From a virus, in the IMG/VR virus record IMGVR_UViG_3300044701_004513, positions 1 through 62,872 of that record: a DNA stretch of 62,872 nucleotides; one strand, written 5' to 3'. The notes beneath the pieces were generated by a model. That model had not been told where the DNA came from and searched no databases. It saw only the letters and a program-made list of their open reading frames with translations. Position numbers and translations under genes: made by a program. Below are positions 1,643 through 11,464 of the stretch, piece after piece (position 1 is the first letter of the stretch; the number at the start of each line of letters is the position of its first letter).

Positions 1643-1649
1643 TATTTAT
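1643..1649 (+). promoter_or_regulatory. TATTTAT element (candidate late promoter)
   Basis: TATTTAT directly overlaps the ATG at 1648. It is one copy of the element that recurs before structural genes in this window. If it acts as a -10 element the transcript would begin inside the gene, so this copy may be a chance match in AT-rich DNA. Confidence 0.25.
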
Positions 1650-3984
1650 GCCAAGAAGTACAGGATATTTCAAAAAAGAAACAAAAAATTATATTTTACA
1701 AAAATATAAAAAAGATTCAAAGATTTTAGATGTTGGTCCAGGTGTTGGAACATATTCCGATTTACTACGCCACGAGGGATATAATAACATAGATTGCGTA
1801 GAAATTTTTGAACCCTACGTAGATGATTACCAACTTAAAGAAAAATATAATAATGTATTTGTTGGGGATATAACCGAATTAAATATAAATTTCGACGAAT
1901 ACGATTTGATAATATTTGGTGATGTTATAGAACATATTTCTTTACCTAAAGCAATATCTTTACTTAATAAAGTATCAAATTCCAATGCAATAGTTGCAGT
2001 ACCTTTTGATTCTAAACAAGGGGAGCATTTTGGTAATGTTTATGAAACTCATTTACAAGATGATTTAACTTTTCAAAACTTTTTCCAAAGATTTTTGGGT
2101 TTCTATCCTTTCTGTGTTCGTTTTGATTATGGAGTATTTGTTAAAGACCCAACAAATAAAATTTTTGTAGAGACAGGACAAAACCCCTTACCTACGGAAT
2201 TTTCAAATTATATCAAGGACAATTTTGGTTATATGAATCTGCATGATATTTCTCTCGCAGAAGAAGCTATCGTAACACAAGAAAAAACAAAGAATGAAAA
2301 GCATAATACCACTATTGTCACAGGAATGTGGAATTTAGGGAGAGGTGAATTAAATTCTTCTTTCAAAAGAAATTATACCGATTATTTGGAAAGATTTGGA
2401 CAATTACTAAAATCTGATATTCCAATGTATATTTTTGCAGATAAATCCGACGAAGATTTTATTTGGAGTATACGAAAAAAGGACAATACTGTTGTTAATT
2501 TTATGAGTTTGGACGAATTGAAAAATTGGTTTGAATTTACAAACAAAACAAATGAAATAAGAAAACAGGAAAAGTGGTTGTCTCAAGCTGGGTGGTTGAG
2601 GGAGTCTCCACAAGCAACTTTGGAACACTATAATCCTTTAGTGATGAGTAAAATGTTCATGTTGAATAACGTTACTATTTGGAACCCATTCAACACAGAA
2701 TACTTTTTTTGGATTGATGGAGGAATTACAAGTACGGTTAATTATGGTTATTTTACCCACGATAAGGTTTTTGATAATTTGCAAAAAGCAATGTCGGAAA
2801 CAAAAGATTTTATTTTCTTGTCATACCCTTATGAGGGAGGTGAGGAGGTCCATGGCTTCGAAAGAAAACCTCTTGCAAGATATTGTAATACAGACTATGT
2901 GAAATATGTTTGTAGAGGAGGTTTTTTTGGAGGTAAAAAGGGAACTATAAATGAAATAAATGGTTTGTATTACGGATACTTGAAAAATTCATTGTATGAG
3001 GGATATATGGGTACTGAGGAGAGTATTTTTACAATATTAATGCACAATCATAGTGACATTATTTCTCAATATTCTATCGAAGGTAATGGACTTGTGTGGC
3101 CGTTTTTCGAGGAGTTGAAAAGTAGTAGTATTACCAAAAAAATAGTTAATCGAGAAGAAAAAAACTTAGACATAACTAAAGTTGGGTTGTATGTGATTAC
3201 TTTCAATAGTCCAAATCAATTTGAAACTTTAATACAATCAATGTTGGAATACGATGAAAACTACATATCAAAAACAAAAAAGTTTTTATTAGATAATTCA
3301 ACCGATAGTTCTACATTTGAAAAATATAAAGTACTTTGCGAAAAGTATAATTTTGAACATATCAAAAAAGATAATTTGGGTATTTGTGGTGGTAGACAAT
3401 TTATTGCCGAGCATTTTGAAAAAAACACTGATTTAGATTTTTATTTATTTTTTGAAGATGACATGTTTTTCTACCCAAAAAAAGGGGAAGTCTGTAAGAA
3501 TGGATTTATTAGATATGTAGATGAGTTGTATTTGAAAACGTTAGAAATAGTCAAAAAAGAAAAGTTTGATTTTCTTAAATTAAATTTTACGGAATTTTAT
3601 GGAAATAACTCAACACAATGGTCGTGGTACAATGTACCTCAAAACATCAGAGAAACGTTTTGGCCTGAAAAATCCAAATTACCTGAAGTAGGACTAGACC
3701 TAAATGCCCCGAAGACCATCTACAAAAATGTTTTATCACACAAAGGGACTCCCTATGCAACAGGGGAGGTTTATTATTGTAATTGGCCTCAAATTATTAC
3801 AAGACAGGGAAATAAAAAAATGTTTTTGGATACTACTTGGGCTCACCCATTTGAACAAACATGGATGAGTCACATGTACCAATTAGTTAAAAAGGGAGAA
3901 TTGAATCCTGGTATATTATTAATGACTCCTACCGAACACAATAGATTTGAACATTATAGTAAGGACCTTCGTAAAGAATCATAA
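1648..3984 (+). CDS. three-domain fusion: SAM methyltransferase + HtrL/YibB-like + GT2-like glycosyltransferase
   Basis: 778 residues in three parts. Residues about 15-180 are a class I SAM-dependent methyltransferase: motif I ILDVGPGVGTYSDLL at about 26-40, then IIFGDVIEHI. Residues about 220-500 are an HtrL/YibB-like domain (TIVTGMWNLGRGELN, FFWIDGG near 354, GGFFGGKKG, TEESIF). Residues about 510-778 begin like a GT2-type glycosyltransferase (VGLYVITFNSP, then LFFEDDMFF near 602 with an acidic cluster like the metal-binding DxD). Together they suggest one polypeptide that builds and methylates a sugar. It shares its middle domain with the protein encoded at 83-952. Domain calls are by motif; the actual substrate is unknown. 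Confidence 0.8.
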   Translation: MPRSTGYFKKETKNYILQKYKKDSKILDVGPGVGTYSDLLRHEGYNNIDCVEIFEPYVDDYQLKEKYNNVFVGDITELNINFDEYDLIIFGDVIEHISLPKAISLLNKVSNSNAIVAVPFDSKQGEHFGNVYETHLQDDLTFQNFFQRFLGFYPFCVRFDYGVFVKDPTNKIFVETGQNPLPTEFSNYIKDNFGYMNLHDISLAEEAIVTQEKTKNEKHNTTIVTGMWNLGRGELNSSFKRNYTDYLERFGQLLKSDIPMYIFADKSDEDFIWSIRKKDNTVVNFMSLDELKNWFEFTNKTNEIRKQEKWLSQAGWLRESPQATLEHYNPLVMSKMFMLNNVTIWNPFNTEYFFWIDGGITSTVNYGYFTHDKVFDNLQKAMSETKDFIFLSYPYEGGEEVHGFERKPLARYCNTDYVKYVCRGGFFGGKKGTINEINGLYYGYLKNSLYEGYMGTEESIFTILMHNHSDIISQYSIEGNGLVWPFFEELKSSSITKKIVNREEKNLDITKVGLYVITFNSPNQFETLIQSMLEYDENYISKTKKFLLDNSTDSSTFEKYKVLCEKYNFEHIKKDNLGICGGRQFIAEHFEKNTDLDFYLFFEDDMFFYPKKGEVCKNGFIRYVDELYLKTLEIVKKEKFDFLKLNFTEFYGNNSTQWSWYNVPQNIRETFWPEKSKLPEVGLDLNAPKTIYKNVLSHKGTPYATGEVYYCNWPQIITRQGNKKMFLDTTWAHPFEQTWMSHMYQLVKKGELNPGILLMTPTEHNRFEHYSKDLRKES

Positions 3985-4469: not shown

Positions 4470-7259
4470 ATGATTACAAATGAGCAAATAGAGTCGTTCT
4501 TGCATGGAAACGACCCCGAAGAATTTATTGTTGCAATAGAATTTGACTACGTCTCAAACTCAATTTATAAGATAAAAGAAATACCCAACAAAGGTAAGGA
4601 AATTAGAAAGGATAGTTTCATTCCATTTGCTTGGGTTGGAGATTTGCGTGGATTAAATTTTTATAATAATTCAAAGGCTTCACAGAAAGAAGCAATGTCC
4701 AAACATGGAATCCTCATAGAAAAACTTGAAACCCAAGATAATGAAAGGTTAGAAAATGGTCTCACTTACATTGTCAAATCTTTGAAGGGTTATAGAGAAC
4801 TTATACAATTTTTTAGAGAAGGTAATTTGGACCCTTGGTCTGAGAAAGCAAAAGACAAAATATTAGTATTGCCTCCAGTTGAACAATATCTTATTTCAAA
4901 AGAAAAAAGATTGTTCAAAGGATTCGAAGATTATGACCAAGTGACAAGATTGGTGTTTGACTTAGAAACTAATGCTTTGGAGCCTAAAGATGGTAGAATC
5001 TTCATGATTGGAATCAAGACAAACAAGGGCTATCATAGAGTCATTGAATGCCTTGATGAAAAGGAAGAAAAGGGGGCAATCATTGAGTTTTTTAATGTAA
5101 TCAACGAATTGAAACCAAGTATTATTGGTGGATATAACTCAGCAAACTTCGACTGGCATTGGATTTTTGAAAGATGTAAGATATTAGGAATAGAACCAAA
5201 AAAGATATGTAAGTCATTACACCCTGAACATTCTTTCAGTAGAAAAGAGAATATATTAAAACTAGCAAACGAGGTTGAAAATTATATTCAAACATCTATT
5301 TGGGGTTATAATGTAATTGATATTATTCATGCTGTAAGAAGGGCTCAAGCAATTAATTCAAATATTAAAAGTGCAGGTCTTAAATATATCACAAAATTTA
5401 TTGAAGCTGAAGCCCCTGACCGTGTATACATTGACCACGAAAATATTGGTAAGATGTATAGCAACAATGAGGAATATTGGTTGAATGTTCAAAATGGGAA
5501 ATATAAAAAAATATCTGAATTTGCTGACTTGGACCTTAAGTTTCCAGGTGTTTATATAAAAACCAATGGTTCTAACTTAGTTGAGCGATATTTGGACGAT
5601 GACTTGGATGAGACTTTAAAAGTTGACCAAGAATTTAATCAAGGCTCCTTCTTACTTGCGGCAATGATTCCAACAACATACGAAAGAGTATCTACCATGG
5701 GAACAGCAACATTATGGAAAATGTTGATGTTGGCGTGGTCATATAAAAATAACTTGGCAATACCCGCTAAACAAAGTAAGACAGACTTCGTAGGGGGTCT
5801 TTCCCGACTACTTAAGGTTGGATATAGTAAGAACGTTCTTAAGTTGGACTTCTCGTCTCTATACCCTTCCATTCAGCTTGTACATGATGTTTTTCCCGAT
5901 TGTGATGTAACAGGTGCGATGAAGGGAATGTTAAAGTATTTTAGAGACACCCGTATCAAATACAAACAACTGGCAGAGGAATTTTATGAGAAAGACAAGA
6001 AAAAGTCCGAATCATATTCTAACAAACAATTACCAATCAAAATCTTTATTAACTCAATGTTCGGAGCATTGTCAGCACCTCAGGTTTTTGCGTGGGGTGA
6101 CATGTATATGGGTGAACAAATCACTTGTACAGGAAGACAATATCTTCGACAGATGATTAAGTTTTTTATGACAAAAGGTTATGTTCCACTTGTTATGGAT
6201 ACGGACGGTGTGAACTTTTCAAGCCCTGATGATGCAAATGAGAGGGAATACGTTGGTCGTGGCTTGAATTGGAAAGTTAAAGAAGGTAAAATTTATAAAG
6301 GTCCTGAGGCTGATGTTGCTGAGTATAATGATATATTCATGAGAGGTGAAATGGCTTTAGATACTGACGGTGTTTGGCCATCGTGTATTAATTTGGCCAG
6401 GAAAAATTATGCGGTAATGGATGCCAAAGGGAAAATAAAATTGACTGGCAATAGCATTAAGTCAAAAAAATTACCATTATATATCGAGGAATTCTTAGAT
6501 AAAGGAATAAAAATGTTATTACATGGTCAAGGTAAAGAATTTATAGAATATTATTATGAATATCTAACAAAAATCTATGACAAAAAAGTACCATTATCTA
6601 AAATTGCTCAAAGAGCCAAAGTCAAACTTACCATAGATGATTATATAAAAAGATTATCTACAAAGACTAAGGCGGGAAATTCTATGTCTAGAATGGCACA
6701 CATGGAGTTGGCAATTCAAAATAATATAAGTGTGAATTTAGGTGACGTTATTATGTATGTTAATAATGGAACTAAAGCATCTCAAGGAGATGTACAAAAG
6801 ATGACGGCAAAACAAATTAAGGATACAAATGCCGTGAATTTACATAATAACCCTAAAGCAAAACCAATTACAGATGGTGTTATGGTTAATTGTTATATGT
6901 TGGATAAGGATATTTTAGAAAAAGACCCTGAGTTGACTGGCGACTACAACGTTCCAAGAGCAATAACAACTTTCAATAAAAGAATAGAACCTCTACTTGT
7001 TGTATTTCAAGATGAGGTGAGAGAGTCATTGATTGTTTCTGAACCTTCCGAGAGAGGAATATTCACAACAGCTCAATGCCAACTGATAAATGGGAATCCA
7101 TTAGGTGAGGGAGACCAAGATGATTTACAAAAAGACGTACTTGATGTTACTGAACAGGAACTGAAGTATTGGGAAAAAAGAGGATTGTCCCCTGATTATA
7201 TGTATGAATTGGCTGAAAATGGGTGGGAAACAAAATTAAGATTGTTTCAAACCGTCTGA
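4470..7259 (+). CDS. family B DNA polymerase (T4 gp43-like) with 3'-5' exonuclease
   Basis: 929 residues, close to T4 gp43 (about 900). The exonuclease half shows Exo I (VFDLETNALEP) and an Exo II-like NFDWHWIFERC. The polymerase half shows motif A LDFSSLYPS with Asp at about 460, motif B KIFINSMFGA, and motif C MDTDGVNF with the catalytic DTD at about 577-579. This is the replicative polymerase and would act with the SSB, helicase and RecA-like proteins encoded at 34475-39560. It is separated from that cluster by about 27 kb of mostly tail genes. Its last 24 bases overlap the 3' end of a minus-strand gene, so transcription converges here. Confidence 0.97.
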   Translation: MITNEQIESFLHGNDPEEFIVAIEFDYVSNSIYKIKEIPNKGKEIRKDSFIPFAWVGDLRGLNFYNNSKASQKEAMSKHGILIEKLETQDNERLENGLTYIVKSLKGYRELIQFFREGNLDPWSEKAKDKILVLPPVEQYLISKEKRLFKGFEDYDQVTRLVFDLETNALEPKDGRIFMIGIKTNKGYHRVIECLDEKEEKGAIIEFFNVINELKPSIIGGYNSANFDWHWIFERCKILGIEPKKICKSLHPEHSFSRKENILKLANEVENYIQTSIWGYNVIDIIHAVRRAQAINSNIKSAGLKYITKFIEAEAPDRVYIDHENIGKMYSNNEEYWLNVQNGKYKKISEFADLDLKFPGVYIKTNGSNLVERYLDDDLDETLKVDQEFNQGSFLLAAMIPTTYERVSTMGTATLWKMLMLAWSYKNNLAIPAKQSKTDFVGGLSRLLKVGYSKNVLKLDFSSLYPSIQLVHDVFPDCDVTGAMKGMLKYFRDTRIKYKQLAEEFYEKDKKKSESYSNKQLPIKIFINSMFGALSAPQVFAWGDMYMGEQITCTGRQYLRQMIKFFMTKGYVPLVMDTDGVNFSSPDDANEREYVGRGLNWKVKEGKIYKGPEADVAEYNDIFMRGEMALDTDGVWPSCINLARKNYAVMDAKGKIKLTGNSIKSKKLPLYIEEFLDKGIKMLLHGQGKEFIEYYYEYLTKIYDKKVPLSKIAQRAKVKLTIDDYIKRLSTKTKAGNSMSRMAHMELAIQNNISVNLGDVIMYVNNGTKASQGDVQKMTAKQIKDTNAVNLHNNPKAKPITDGVMVNCYMLDKDILEKDPELTGDYNVPRAITTFNKRIEPLLVVFQDEVRESLIVSEPSERGIFTTAQCQLINGNPLGEGDQDDLQKDVLDVTEQELKYWEKRGLSPDYMYELAENGWETKLRLFQTV

Positions 7260-7571
7260 TGAAAGAATGTACCAATAACCACCAACAAATCTGAATTCAA
7301 CACATGCACCTAAATCCATCTCAATTTCATCGAATTGTTCATCAATTGTGTTCACATCAGGTTTGATTATTAAGTGAGTCATAGCTTTAACTACAATATG
7401 GTCAGTAGTTCTAGAATTCAAGGTGAGGACACACGAGGGAATACCTCTAACAATAATACAATCTTCTCCTTGTGTGGAATAATCTGTTTCGGAAACTACG
7501 GATATTTCTGAAGTATCTATTAATCTCCCATGTACTAATCTTTGGGCTGGTATACTTTTGATGATTGCCAT
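7236..7571 (-). CDS. small unknown protein, possibly virion-associated
   Basis: 111 residues from ATG at 7571; an upstream in-frame TTG at 7577 is less likely. The sequence is rich in beta-strand-like segments (EDCIIVRGIPSCVLTL, HIVVKAMTHLIIKP) and ends YWYILSSDG, like small structural domains that decorate phage virions. No family recognised. It lies 6 bases downstream of the neck-like gene on the same strand and is probably co-transcribed with it. Its 3' end overlaps the polymerase gene tail to tail. Confidence 0.7.
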   Translation of the reverse strand: MAIIKSIPAQRLVHGRLIDTSEISVVSETDYSTQGEDCIIVRGIPSCVLTLNSRTTDHIVVKAMTHLIIKPDVNTIDEQFDEIEMDLGACVEFRFVGGYWYILSSDGLKQS

Positions 7572-7577
7572 AAACAA

Positions 7578-8699
7578 TTATATTACATAAATTTGTCTAG
7601 GAAAGGCATGGTACTTAAGTTGTTTGTTAAGATTTTCGGCAATTAACGCTTCTTTTTCCATTTGTTTTTCAGGCCTCAACCTTTCTAGTCTGAGTTTAAG
7701 TTCCTCATCTAATTTTGCTTTTTCGTTTGCCGCTTCGGTCAAAAGACTTGTATAGTCCATTTGAAGTTCGCTATCAGGGGTTTTCAAATTCCCACTATAT
7801 TTTCCTCTAACTCTTGCTAAGGTTTCTTTTACATATGCTGTAAACCATCTACGTACCCACTGTTTTGCCGGTTCGTTTAAATCAACCCATTGTAATTGAC
7901 CAATCGGAACATCTGAAGGTAATTTAATTATATCAGGATTTGACCTTAAACAATCATCCCTATCTTCACCTGTAGTGTCATAATACCAATACCAAACATT
8001 TTTTCCAACGTACTGACTATAACTTGTCCAATTGAACCTTCCGTTAGGCGTATTCATTAGGTGAATGAGTTTTTTTCCATCAGGTAATCCTGTTATTCTG
8101 TAGGTTAAACTACCACCTAAAATTCTATTTAAAATATTTGCTTCTTGTGCTCTTATCAGATAATCAAAACCTGACATCATAAAATACGAACCTTGGTACC
8201 CAAATTGTGCATATCCTGCCTGAGGAGCGCCTAACCCCGCACCATCCAAACCAAATCCTAATCCCACACCACCCAATCCGAACATCGTCCATGGTTGGTT
8301 ACTAAACCAAAGAAGTTCATTTACTTCACGACCAGCGGGAATTGTATATGTTTGAGTGTTTGCACTAAGAGTGAAATAATCTTTTTTTAGTACCCAAGGA
8401 CCCGATGTTTGAAGACCCACAATTTTTGAATATGAATATTGAAATTGTTGTTCAAAATCCATTGTCCTTGTGACAAGTGCTTTTGCAACTGATTTCACAC
8501 TCATATCTAAATTCACAAGATTAACCCAATTGGTTTCTATCAACCAATCCAAAACGTATTGTTCGTAGTCTTGAATTGAAAGTTCCATGAGGGAATCCAT
8601 CATCTCGTCTTCTACTTCAACGCTTCTTAATGGTGCACCCAATAAATGTTTGATTCTTGTGTAAATCTGACTTCTTTCTGGTTCTGCTATTACTGGCAT
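7578..8699 (-). CDS. virion structural protein, neck/head-tail connector-like
   Basis: 373 residues. The N-terminus (QIYTRIKHLLGAP, then VEDEMMDSLMELSIQDYEQYVLDW) has the helical layout seen in T4-like neck proteins of the gp13 type. It is followed by WVLKKDYFTLSANTQTYTIP and a Gly-rich loop (FGLGGVGLGFGLDGAGLG) of the sort found in virion proteins. The C-terminal third is charged and helical, probably a coiled coil. A neck or connector role is inferred from pattern only. In T4 the neck genes sit beside the sheath gene; here this gene is inverted relative to the tail genes. A TATTTAT element lies just upstream on the minus strand. Confidence 0.75.
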   Translation of the reverse strand: MPVIAEPERSQIYTRIKHLLGAPLRSVEVEDEMMDSLMELSIQDYEQYVLDWLIETNWVNLVNLDMSVKSVAKALVTRTMDFEQQFQYSYSKIVGLQTSGPWVLKKDYFTLSANTQTYTIPAGREVNELLWFSNQPWTMFGLGGVGLGFGLDGAGLGAPQAGYAQFGYQGSYFMMSGFDYLIRAQEANILNRILGGSLTYRITGLPDGKKLIHLMNTPNGRFNWTSYSQYVGKNVWYWYYDTTGEDRDDCLRSNPDIIKLPSDVPIGQLQWVDLNEPAKQWVRRWFTAYVKETLARVRGKYSGNLKTPDSELQMDYTSLLTEAANEKAKLDEELKLRLERLRPEKQMEKEALIAENLNKQLKYHAFPRQIYVI

Positions 8700-8728: not shown

Positions 8729-10486
8729 TTATTGTGCTCCTTCATTTATTCTATTCATTATCTCTTCAACAAAATCAGCACTATTAATATTGTCTCCCAT
8801 TACAGTGGCAATAACTTGTTTTTTTGCAATCAAAATATCATATATAAGGCCTTCAATAGTATTTTCAAACAAAGGATAATAGACGAGAACATTATTTTTT
8901 TGCCCTATACGATATGCTCTGTCTTCAGCTTGTGAATGGTCTGATGGTAAGAATGATAAATCATTCATTATAACCGCTTCAGCCGCTGTTAGAGTTATAC
9001 CTACACCAGCCGCTTTAATGTTTCCAACAAATACTTTTATTTTTTCATCTTCTTGGAATCTATCGACACTGTGTTGTCTATCGTTTTTAGACATTGAGCC
9101 ATCAACCTTTACCGCGGTTTTTCCAAAATGAGAAACTATGTTGTTTAGTGATTCTGTAAAATTACAAAATATAATAACTTTTTTTCCTTGTTCTATTATG
9201 TTCTCGGCAAGTTCAATCGTCTGTGAAATTTTTTCATTTGCAATTACCTGTCGGACCTTTGTTAGTTTAGTAAATTGAATTGTTAAAGAATTACTTTCGT
9301 TTGGGTTACTTCTATACCATTCGTAGTATTCCCCCATTAAGTTTTCATATTCTTTAGATTTTAATCTAAGATAGATTGGGGTTATAATTTTATCAGGTAA
9401 ATCCAATACATCTTCTTTCAATCTTCTGAGTATTGTATTATTTGTTCTATCTCTTAGTTCTTCTAAGTTTGATGCACCCATAACATTCCACACTTTCTTA
9501 GCACCGACTTTAAATTGATAGCCAGAACAATACCTTACAACATATGCCATCCAATTTTTTGCGACAGGAGAATCAACTAAACTAAGTAGGTTATAATAAT
9601 CGATTGGTCTTGATGTCATTGGAGTACCTGTAAGTAACCAAAGTCTTTCAATGTCTTTAACAATATCGTTAATTAATTTGGTTCTTTGAGCTTGAGCATT
9701 TTTTATATAATGTGCTTCATCGATTATTACTAAGTCAAATCCCGTGTTTAATATTTGAGATTCCTTTTTCTTTTTTGGGTCATGGAAATTTTTAATTATA
9801 TCATAATTTATGATAATAAAATCCGCTTCGGAACTGTAATTTTTTCCTTCACAAATGAAAATTTCTCTATCTGTGTAATTTTCTATCTCTCTTTTCCAGT
9901 TTATTTTAAGTGTTGCTGGACATATTATCAAAACTTTTTTTGCACCGGTTTCTAACGCCGCAATAATTGTACTTGTCGTTTTTCCAAGTCCCATGTCATC
10001 AGCTAAAATAAATTTTTTATTTTCAACTAATTTCTGAATAGATTCCTTTTGGTGTGATAATGGAGGTCTCTTTTGATATTTTGTGTAATCAACAACAACA
10101 TTTTTTACTGTGTTGTCTTTTATAACCGATGCTTTAGGGAGCCAAAATTCGTGGAGTTCACTTTCTTCAAAATACTTTCCCCAAACATGATAAGCCTTTT
10201 CACGTTCTGATAAAAGTTTTTCAATCCAAACTTTCTCAGGGACTTTTGTTAATAATTTGTCGTTGGCAAATTTCTGAGCAAAATAAGAATCTAAAATTAC
10301 CCACTTTTTGGCAACCTTAGGATTTTTGTCGTGATTTTCTATAATGTATTCACATTGACTTCTGGTCGGGTAAAATTTTCTATTTATTTCGGATTTCCTT
10401 TTCAACTCCAAAATATAATTGTTTGACCCATCATAGACATACAGAATGTCCATCGCCCTTGTTTCTAATGTTTCATGTGCCATCAT
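8729..10486 (-). CDS. SNF2-family DEAH ATPase/helicase (SMARCAL1/HARP-like)
   Basis: 585 residues with a full SNF2-type helicase set: Walker A ADDMGLGKTT (about 162-171), DEAH box in VIIDEAHYIKNAQ, motif III LWLLTGTPM, motif IV KKVIIFCNFTESLN, motif V AAGVGITLTAAEAVI, and motif VI RAYRIGQKN. The first 140 or so residues are a separate domain with no clear match. Such ATPases translocate on duplex DNA and remodel protein-DNA or forked structures; in phage they may serve replication restart or recombination, like T4 UvsW, although UvsW belongs to a different helicase group. The start overlaps the stop of the SET gene (ATGA), so the two are probably translationally coupled. Confidence 0.95.
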   Translation of the reverse strand: MMAHETLETRAMDILYVYDGSNNYILELKRKSEINRKFYPTRSQCEYIIENHDKNPKVAKKWVILDSYFAQKFANDKLLTKVPEKVWIEKLLSEREKAYHVWGKYFEESELHEFWLPKASVIKDNTVKNVVVDYTKYQKRPPLSHQKESIQKLVENKKFILADDMGLGKTTSTIIAALETGAKKVLIICPATLKINWKREIENYTDREIFICEGKNYSSEADFIIINYDIIKNFHDPKKKKESQILNTGFDLVIIDEAHYIKNAQAQRTKLINDIVKDIERLWLLTGTPMTSRPIDYYNLLSLVDSPVAKNWMAYVVRYCSGYQFKVGAKKVWNVMGASNLEELRDRTNNTILRRLKEDVLDLPDKIITPIYLRLKSKEYENLMGEYYEWYRSNPNESNSLTIQFTKLTKVRQVIANEKISQTIELAENIIEQGKKVIIFCNFTESLNNIVSHFGKTAVKVDGSMSKNDRQHSVDRFQEDEKIKVFVGNIKAAGVGITLTAAEAVIMNDLSFLPSDHSQAEDRAYRIGQKNNVLVYYPLFENTIEGLIYDILIAKKQVIATVMGDNINSADFVEEIMNRINEGAQ

Positions 10487-10881
10487 TTTACTTCAGTATG
10501 TGTTCTTCCGTCTTGCCAATAAGCATCTCCACCGTAATAAACTAATATTTCTTCCCCAATTTCAATATCTTTAGTACACACAAATTCAAAAGTCCCTTTT
10601 TCTAAATTTGAACGCCAATAAGCATTTGCTTGATTCGAATGATTATATAATGAACCGTATCCCCAAGCAACTACTTGTTTTTCCCACTTAGATTCACCTT
10701 GAGGCCAATTAAATCTATAATCAACCAATACCGTCGAAGATTCGCCATACTTCATACCTAAATCTAAAATGGGGCATTCTTCTATTATTTCACCTTCTAA
10801 TATTTTTTCTCGGGCAAAAACTCCATACCCATGGATATTACTTTTGGTAATATAAATTTTTGAGGGAGGAAATATTTCCAT
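10483..10881 (-). CDS. SET-domain protein (putative protein-lysine methyltransferase)
   Basis: 132 residues, almost entirely a compact SET domain. The SAM-binding GYGVFA is at 18-23. YNHSNQAN is at 79-86, matching the canonical NHSxxPN except that the Pro is Ala. GEEILVYYG is at 109-117 and supplies the expected C-terminal tyrosines (115/116). No pre-SET or post-SET cysteine clusters are present, as in short bacterial SET proteins. The predicted reaction is methyl transfer from SAM to a lysine of a protein, but the target is unknown. It is the first gene of a minus-strand transcript and overlaps the SNF2 ATPase gene by four bases, suggesting a shared function. SET proteins are uncommon in phage. 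Confidence 0.88.
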   Translation of the reverse strand: MEIFPPSKIYITKSNIHGYGVFAREKILEGEIIEECPILDLGMKYGESSTVLVDYRFNWPQGESKWEKQVVAWGYGSLYNHSNQANAYWRSNLEKGTFEFVCTKDIEIGEEILVYYGGDAYWQDGRTHTEVK

Positions 10882-10948
10882 AATATATTTTGAGATTAAA
10901 TGTAATAATATTTCGTGTATTTATCAATAAGGTAAAATTTTATAAAAA
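10882..10948. promoter_or_regulatory. divergent intergenic region between SET gene and plus-strand block
   Basis: 67 bases separate the minus-strand SET gene from the plus-strand gene at 10949. A plus-strand TATTTAT lies at 10918-10924, 24 bases before that ATG. On the minus strand the region contains TACATTTA, one base from the TAnnTTTG consensus, which could serve the SET gene. No Shine-Dalgarno sequence is seen on either side. Confidence 0.45.
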
Positions 10949-11464
10949 ATGTCAGAAAAATTAGTTCCGATTACCAGACTTGGAAAATTCTTTGGTGCTG
11001 AGGATTATGCGTTGGATATTGGGATGGGACAAGAGTGGCTCCAAGGGGACATGAACTTTACTGTCATACTATATAGGGTGGACAGATATAAAACCAAAAC
11101 AGACGATGTATATGGAGAAGCACCCGAGGATGGAATTCAATTCTTACCACCAATAGAAATAAAGGGTCTTGTTCAAATTGTGGGTCCAACCAACATGAGA
11201 CTTGGGGGAAGTAAAGTAGAACAGGAAGAACCGGGTAATATGAGATTTTCTGTATATCAAAAGTATTTGGATGATTTGGGTGTTGATATTGCTTTTGGCG
11301 ATTATTTAGGATATTACGAGACGGAGTCCAAAGTTAGGTATTATAGTGTTCAAGATGATGGTAGGGTTGTTTCGGATAATAAACACACATATGCTGGTTA
11401 TAAACCTTTTTACAGAACAATAACTGCAACTCCGGCATCAACTAATGAATTTACAGGATTGTGA
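10949..11464 (+). CDS. putative virion/neck-region protein
   Basis: 171 residues; no family recognised. The segment FGDYLGYYETESKVRYYSV followed by QDDGRV, and the turn-rich C-terminus, look like small beta-barrel head-closure or neck proteins of myophages. It heads a block of four tightly packed genes ending in a tail-terminator-like gene just before the sheath, which is where neck and head-completion proteins are expected. The stop overlaps the GTG start of the next gene (GTGA). Function is inferred from position and pattern only. Confidence 0.8.
   Translation: MSEKLVPITRLGKFFGAEDYALDIGMGQEWLQGDMNFTVILYRVDRYKTKTDDVYGEAPEDGIQFLPPIEIKGLVQIVGPTNMRLGGSKVEQEEPGNMRFSVYQKYLDDLGVDIAFGDYLGYYETESKVRYYSVQDDGRVVSDNKHTYAGYKPFYRTITATPASTNEFTGL

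Follow-up and report, generated by a model that had tools for sequence, protein, structure and literature searches.

A SET-domain gene directly ahead of a SNF2-family ATPase gene in one clade of large bacteriophages

The window analysed here is the whole of virus record IMGVR_UViG_3300044701_004513 (positions 1 to 62,872; 62,872 bases), and it carries on its minus strand a gene for a SET-domain protein followed immediately by a gene for a SNF2-family ATPase. The reading that we favour, with a probability of roughly 0.6, is that the SET gene, which encodes a putative protein-lysine methyltransferase, is an accessory that was taken up into the transcription unit of SNF2, a core DNA translocase gene of the phage. 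SNF2 would belong to the core genes of a phage lineage characterised by contractile tails and very large size, and its product is predicted to be a dsDNA translocase whose most likely role is in replication, recombination or the clearance of proteins from DNA. In one subclade the SET gene would have been placed at the head of the SNF2 transcription unit, with a promoter-like element on one side and the SNF2 start codon on the other, and selection would have retained it as an optional accessory. Its product would methylate lysine residues in a protein of phage or host origin, presumably with SAM as donor, and would be produced together with SNF2, yet act independently of it.

Organisation of the locus

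The SET gene (10483..10881, minus strand) encodes 132 aa and the SNF2 gene (8729..10486, minus strand) encodes 585 aa. The initial annotation had given both open reading frames these coordinates and a 4-base overlap, and all were found as given. The overlap is an ATGA (10483..10486, minus strand) shared by the SET stop and the SNF2 start, and another ATG in the same frame follows 3 bases later. SET and then SNF2 head a four-gene minus-strand run from 10881 down to 7236, in which SNF2 is followed after a gap of 29 bp by a gene resembling the head-tail adaptor Ad2 (7578..8699, minus strand; phrog_211, E 3e-10), and the last member is a 113-aa open reading frame (7236..7577, minus strand) with no family match in Pfam or PHROG. 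The run is flanked by a family-B DNA polymerase gene (4470-7259, plus strand) and by a divergent 171-aa open reading frame (10949..11464, plus strand) that is syntenic in relatives, past which tail genes lie further on. The pair had also been described as inserted on the opposite strand to its surroundings. Both genes are indeed on the minus strand, but they head a longer run that includes the head-tail adaptor-like gene, and in relatives SNF2 without SET occupies the same divergent position.

A 66,075-base IMG/VR contig encodes SET and SNF2 proteins identical to those of the window, and contigs of relatives of the window phage reach 317-322 kb. Elsewhere in the window, a 778-aa protein (1648-3984, plus strand) combines a class I methyltransferase domain with an HtrL/YibB domain.

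SET and SNF2 overlap by 1 or 4 bases in 22 of the 37 SET-positive representatives, and most of the others lie within 5 bases. The 4-base coupling was rejected as a sign of a dedicated system because overlaps are common in the window phage, where they join 13 of 35 other same-strand neighbours.

A promoter-like element, TTGATAAATA-N13-TACATTT (10898..10927, minus strand), lies 5' of SET in the window. Its general form is TTGATAAATA-N12/13-TANNTTT, and the first half, oriented towards SNF2, was found at 75 of 76 loci, with the second half also present in most. The element usually precedes the first gene, which is SET if present and otherwise SNF2, by about 40-50 nt; SET thus separates SNF2 from an older promoter-like element of its own. 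Eight of nine contigs hold a single exact copy of the full element and the ninth holds two; its reversed control had no match in these nine contigs, and looser matches were near background. Its spacing resembles that of a Bacteroidota-type promoter. The element is probably a promoter, although a role as an operator, or in expression of the divergent gene, is also conceivable. SET and SNF2 are probably co-transcribed from a shared promoter and translationally coupled. The locus may illustrate how an accessory gene joins the transcription unit of a core gene, its entry point lying 3' of a promoter-like element that is conserved and nearly single-copy.

The SET-domain protein

The SET protein has a complete SET fold and belongs to a type of enzyme known chiefly from chromatin. 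It covers the full Pfam model PF00856 (E 1.2e-12), and its best sequence match in the PDB is vSET (E 3.5e-14). Its AlphaFold2 model (pLDDT 88) retrieved vSET first when compared with the PDB by Foldseek (TM 0.86 on target, 33% identity), and a Foldseek comparison with BFVD matched phage and giant-virus SET proteins. In an alignment of 41 relatives, Y55, N80, H81, E111 and Y116 are invariant. The GxG and NHS motifs of the SAM site and the catalytic tyrosine are present, with G20 invariant as well as N80, H81 and Y116, and with G18 and S82 more than 90% conserved. Residues Y50, N72-H73, Y105 and W110 of vSET align with Y55, N80-H81, Y116 and W122 of the window protein, and we take Y55, N80, H81 and Y116 to have active-site roles. 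The claim of an intact compact SET domain is thus borne out by the full-length Pfam match, the vSET-like fold and the conserved active-site residues. The protein is probably a lysine methyltransferase with SAM as the methyl donor.

In pairwise comparisons dN/dS was about 0.05-0.12 in SET and 0.01-0.09 in SNF2, and with such low values neither gene is a chance open reading frame. Judged by these ratios, SET is under strong purifying selection.

The SNF2-family ATPase

SNF2 matches PF00176 (E 2.5e-29), PF00271 (E 3.3e-19) and the DNA helicase family PHROG 62 (E 1.8e-112). The protein has two RecA lobes, in which the alignment shows conservation of GLGKT (166-170), DEAH (256-259) and Q519..R526-GQ529; the Walker A, DEAH and C-lobe motifs are therefore intact, as the initial annotation had stated, in agreement with the Pfam, PHROG 62 and PDB matches. 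The N-terminal domain (about residues 1-135) is conserved and belongs to no named family, and the AlphaFold model of SNF2 was too weak for reading this domain (pLDDT 71, pTM 0.43). Membership of a defence system was considered and rejected, as SNF2 resembles ZorD, DpdE and DrmD solely through the common ATPase domain and SET had no match; an NCBIfam search gave sub-cutoff matches only.

Two observations were made on SNF2 loci of relatives. The SNF2 gene of L014 (6399-9278) contains an in-frame intein with Hint and LAGLIDADG matches, located inside Walker A (GLGK^TTST). In two sister-clade loci (L163:3278-4732 and L165:3279-4739), the gene after SNF2 encodes a protein at least 485 aa long that includes a complete Fe/Mn superoxide dismutase domain.

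Distribution and history of the pair

Gene neighbours were counted in IMG/VR for the best 80 of 527 matches (near SNF2 relatives) and the best 80 of 482 matches (sister clade), and the fractions therefore hold for this sampled neighbourhood, not for phages in general. SET lies directly 5' of SNF2 in 61/80 of the nearest relatives (best 80 of 527), and the divergent gene takes its place in 19/80. In the sister clade, whose SNF2 proteins are about 67-71% identical to that of the window, SET was directly 5' of SNF2 in 0/80 (best 80 of 482). The proposal that the two genes are neighbours in relatives therefore holds inside one SNF2 clade and fails outside it, adjacency being confined to that clade and not conserved across the whole family.

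The same picture emerges from an SNF2 tree of 76 non-redundant sequences, in which all 37 SET-positive loci fall in a single 44-member clade (support 98), the seven SET-negative members are scattered within that clade, and none of the 32 sequences outside it is SET-positive. SET presence changes seven times on this tree, at least five of the changes being forced by well-supported branches, and a single gain with about six later losses would be the simplest history. In the SET tree, proteins encoded at the SNF2 site separate from those encoded elsewhere with two changes. The divergent gene flanks the site at 35/37 SET-positive and 37/37 SET-negative loci; that this flanking gene is equally syntenic was a further reason for rejecting the coupling of SET and SNF2 as a sign of a dedicated system.

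At least three SET types occur at the SNF2 site. Tandem pairs of divergent SET genes were seen 5' of SNF2 (L027, L033, L034 and L036) in the orders BA, AC and CA, and type C proteins are about 121 aa long and lack the DGR C-terminal motif. The three types and the tandem pairs indicate that duplication, loss and probably some exchange occurred. In L077 (4100-5164), SET and SNF2 are fused in frame without the first ~38 SNF2 residues, via a deletion relative to L078. The fusion could be genuine or an artefact of assembly. Because it was seen in one metagenome contig, and that contig has a deletion compared with its close relative, it was kept as a lead and not accepted as Rosetta-stone proof.

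Each gene without the other

SNF2 is present and SET of any kind absent in G007 (317 kb) and in eight sister-clade contigs of 121-322 kb; G037 (322 kb) has SNF2 without SET. Conversely, SET is present with no SNF2 domain detected in 11 contigs of up to 274 kb, in a search for which control genomes gave matches. One of these 11, G032 (233 kb), resembles G031, in which SET and SNF2 are both present about 217 kb apart, and it may lack the SNF2-bearing part of its genome; where a contig may be incomplete, a missing gene is weak evidence. An obligate pair would require co-occurrence in relatives, and both SNF2-only and SET-only contigs were found. That each gene also occurs alone points to a core gene with an optional passenger rather than a two-part machine.

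SET genes away from SNF2 are often found among surface-glycan and tail-like genes. In L056 (6434-11107), a SET gene adjoins a 1557-aa phage gene with a CHU_C type IX secretion signal and a PKD domain, which suggests a Bacteroidota host for at least that phage. A first profile search of the genome contigs with the SET alignment found nothing, and a second found one gammaproteobacterial MAG, whose 42%-identical SET protein (L318:7968-8453) has a hydrophobic C-terminus. Matches to the SET alignment were present in 19 of 185 sampled gammaproteobacterial genomes, five of them strong.

Possible functions of the pair

The initial annotation had proposed that the two genes form a system of their own for modifying and remodelling a DNA-bound protein. 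This is not supported, given that each gene also occurs alone and that SET divergence follows SNF2 divergence weakly. Mean distances were 0.75 for SET and 0.19 for SNF2, so SET diverges much faster. Distances of SET (all types) and SNF2 correlated with r 0.08, compared with r 0.71 for SNF2 and the divergent gene; type A, the main SET type, alone gave r 0.47 with SNF2, and 0.32 as a partial correlation once the divergent gene was controlled for. Cooperation in which SET methylates a DNA-bound host or phage protein that SNF2 then strips or slides is unlikely in our estimation, even with the shared promoter-like element and coupling, the long-lived linkage within one clade, an acidic SET (pI 4.9) beside a basic SNF2, and reports of archaeal and bacterial SETs acting on DNA-bound proteins (PMC3980110) in its favour, since each of the two genes is commonly found without the other. 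It is further disfavoured by a search for the HU family (PF00216), the example of a target given initially, which found no match in 16 phage contigs of the lineage; a phage HU was thus rejected as the substrate, and a host HU would be the possible form of such a target. A minimal chromatin-modifier module, in which SET marks a DNA-bound protein and the co-expressed SNF2 acts on the marked complex, is made conceivable by MC1-alpha methylation by an archaeal SET together with the roles proposed for jumbo-phage helicases, and we rate it as rather improbable. If true, it would be a pairing of methylation and remodelling in a bacterial virus, and we know of no earlier pair of protein methylation and remodelling in such a virus.

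SET might also methylate and tune the SNF2 ATPase itself. Immediate adjacency with probable co-translation and the one possible fusion (L077) are compatible with this, but no SNF2 lysine tracks SET presence and none was lost in the SET-negative clade members, of which there are only seven, giving low power. SNF2 as substrate was for this reason rejected as far as lysine conservation goes. Furthermore, the lysines that distinguish the SNF2 clade from its sister clade are kept even without SET, and SET families exist without SNF2, leaving this reading very unlikely. The adjacency to SNF2 may instead be incidental, with SET methylating a virion or cell-surface protein. In the SNF2-linked lineage SET lies among structural genes, and elsewhere SET genes adjoin genes for glycosyltransferase, epimerase, sulfotransferase, LPS synthesis and CHU_C-domain proteins. 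However, this argument rests on context, with no link to a particular structural protein, and the SNF2-linked SETs form their own lineages; the proposal appears improbable.

The findings do support conserved adjacency within the phage lineage, a probable shared promoter with translational coupling, and purifying selection. Stable linkage, near-constant tight coupling, tandem SETs, the L077 fusion and the partial correlation of 0.32 leave room for real cooperation, and SET may have a helper role for SNF2. The lineage offers a natural comparison, as the same SNF2 and promoter-like element occur with, without or with two SET genes, and methyl-lysine proteomics of such relatives would make the question of the phage SET substrate directly testable. 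Phage SET proteins as such are already annotated. In the literature searched, no substrate was found for any SET enzyme of a bacterial virus, nor was clade-wide placement of SET in an SNF2 transcription unit, and no paper treated SET, SNF2 and phage genomes together, although one review of chromatin proteins encoded by viruses (PMC3243496) might mention them.

Comparison with known systems

The closest known relative in structure is vSET of Paramecium bursaria chlorella virus 1 (PDB 1n3j, 3kma), a histone H3 Lys27 methyltransferase. Both vSET and the window protein consist of one compact SET domain, about 120-130 aa long, and lack pre- and post-SET domains. In contrast, the window SET is a bacterial-virus gene product linked to SNF2, and a histone H3 target would be absent from a bacterial host. 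SET homologues in Stenotrophomonas phages Moby, Mendera and Ps15 and in a 735-kb uncultured phage are phage-encoded like that of the window, those of Moby, Mendera and the 735-kb phage being 35-48% identical to it. The Moby gene lies among small hypothetical genes with no adjacent SNF2, and no SNF2 matching that of the window is within 5 kb of SET in the 735-kb phage.

DNA-bound proteins, among them MC1-alpha and histones, are reported targets of archaeal and bacterial SET proteins, and Go1-SET of Methanosarcina mazei is reported to methylate the DNA-associated protein MC1-alpha (PMC3980110). Go1-SET and the bacterial SETs are small prokaryotic proteins like that of the window, but are encoded by cellular genes. 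Most matched bacterial and plasmid SETs are 29-43% identical to the window protein, and no SNF2 like that of the window was found within the few kb examined around these loci. Snf2/Swi2 helicases of jumbo phages (PHROG 62) are, like the window SNF2, SNF2-family ATPases of large phages, and have been discussed as possible UvsW substitutes in recombination or as RapA-like, with no SET partner mentioned in the sections consulted (PMC7824862). A parallel in gene arrangement is a dyad of SWI2/SNF2 and DNA adenine methylase in phages and plasmids (PMC5512222), which, like the SET/SNF2 pair, links an SNF2 ATPase to a methyltransferase in phage genomes; the dyad methyltransferase modifies DNA, whereas the window SET is a putative protein-methyltransferase, unrelated in fold.
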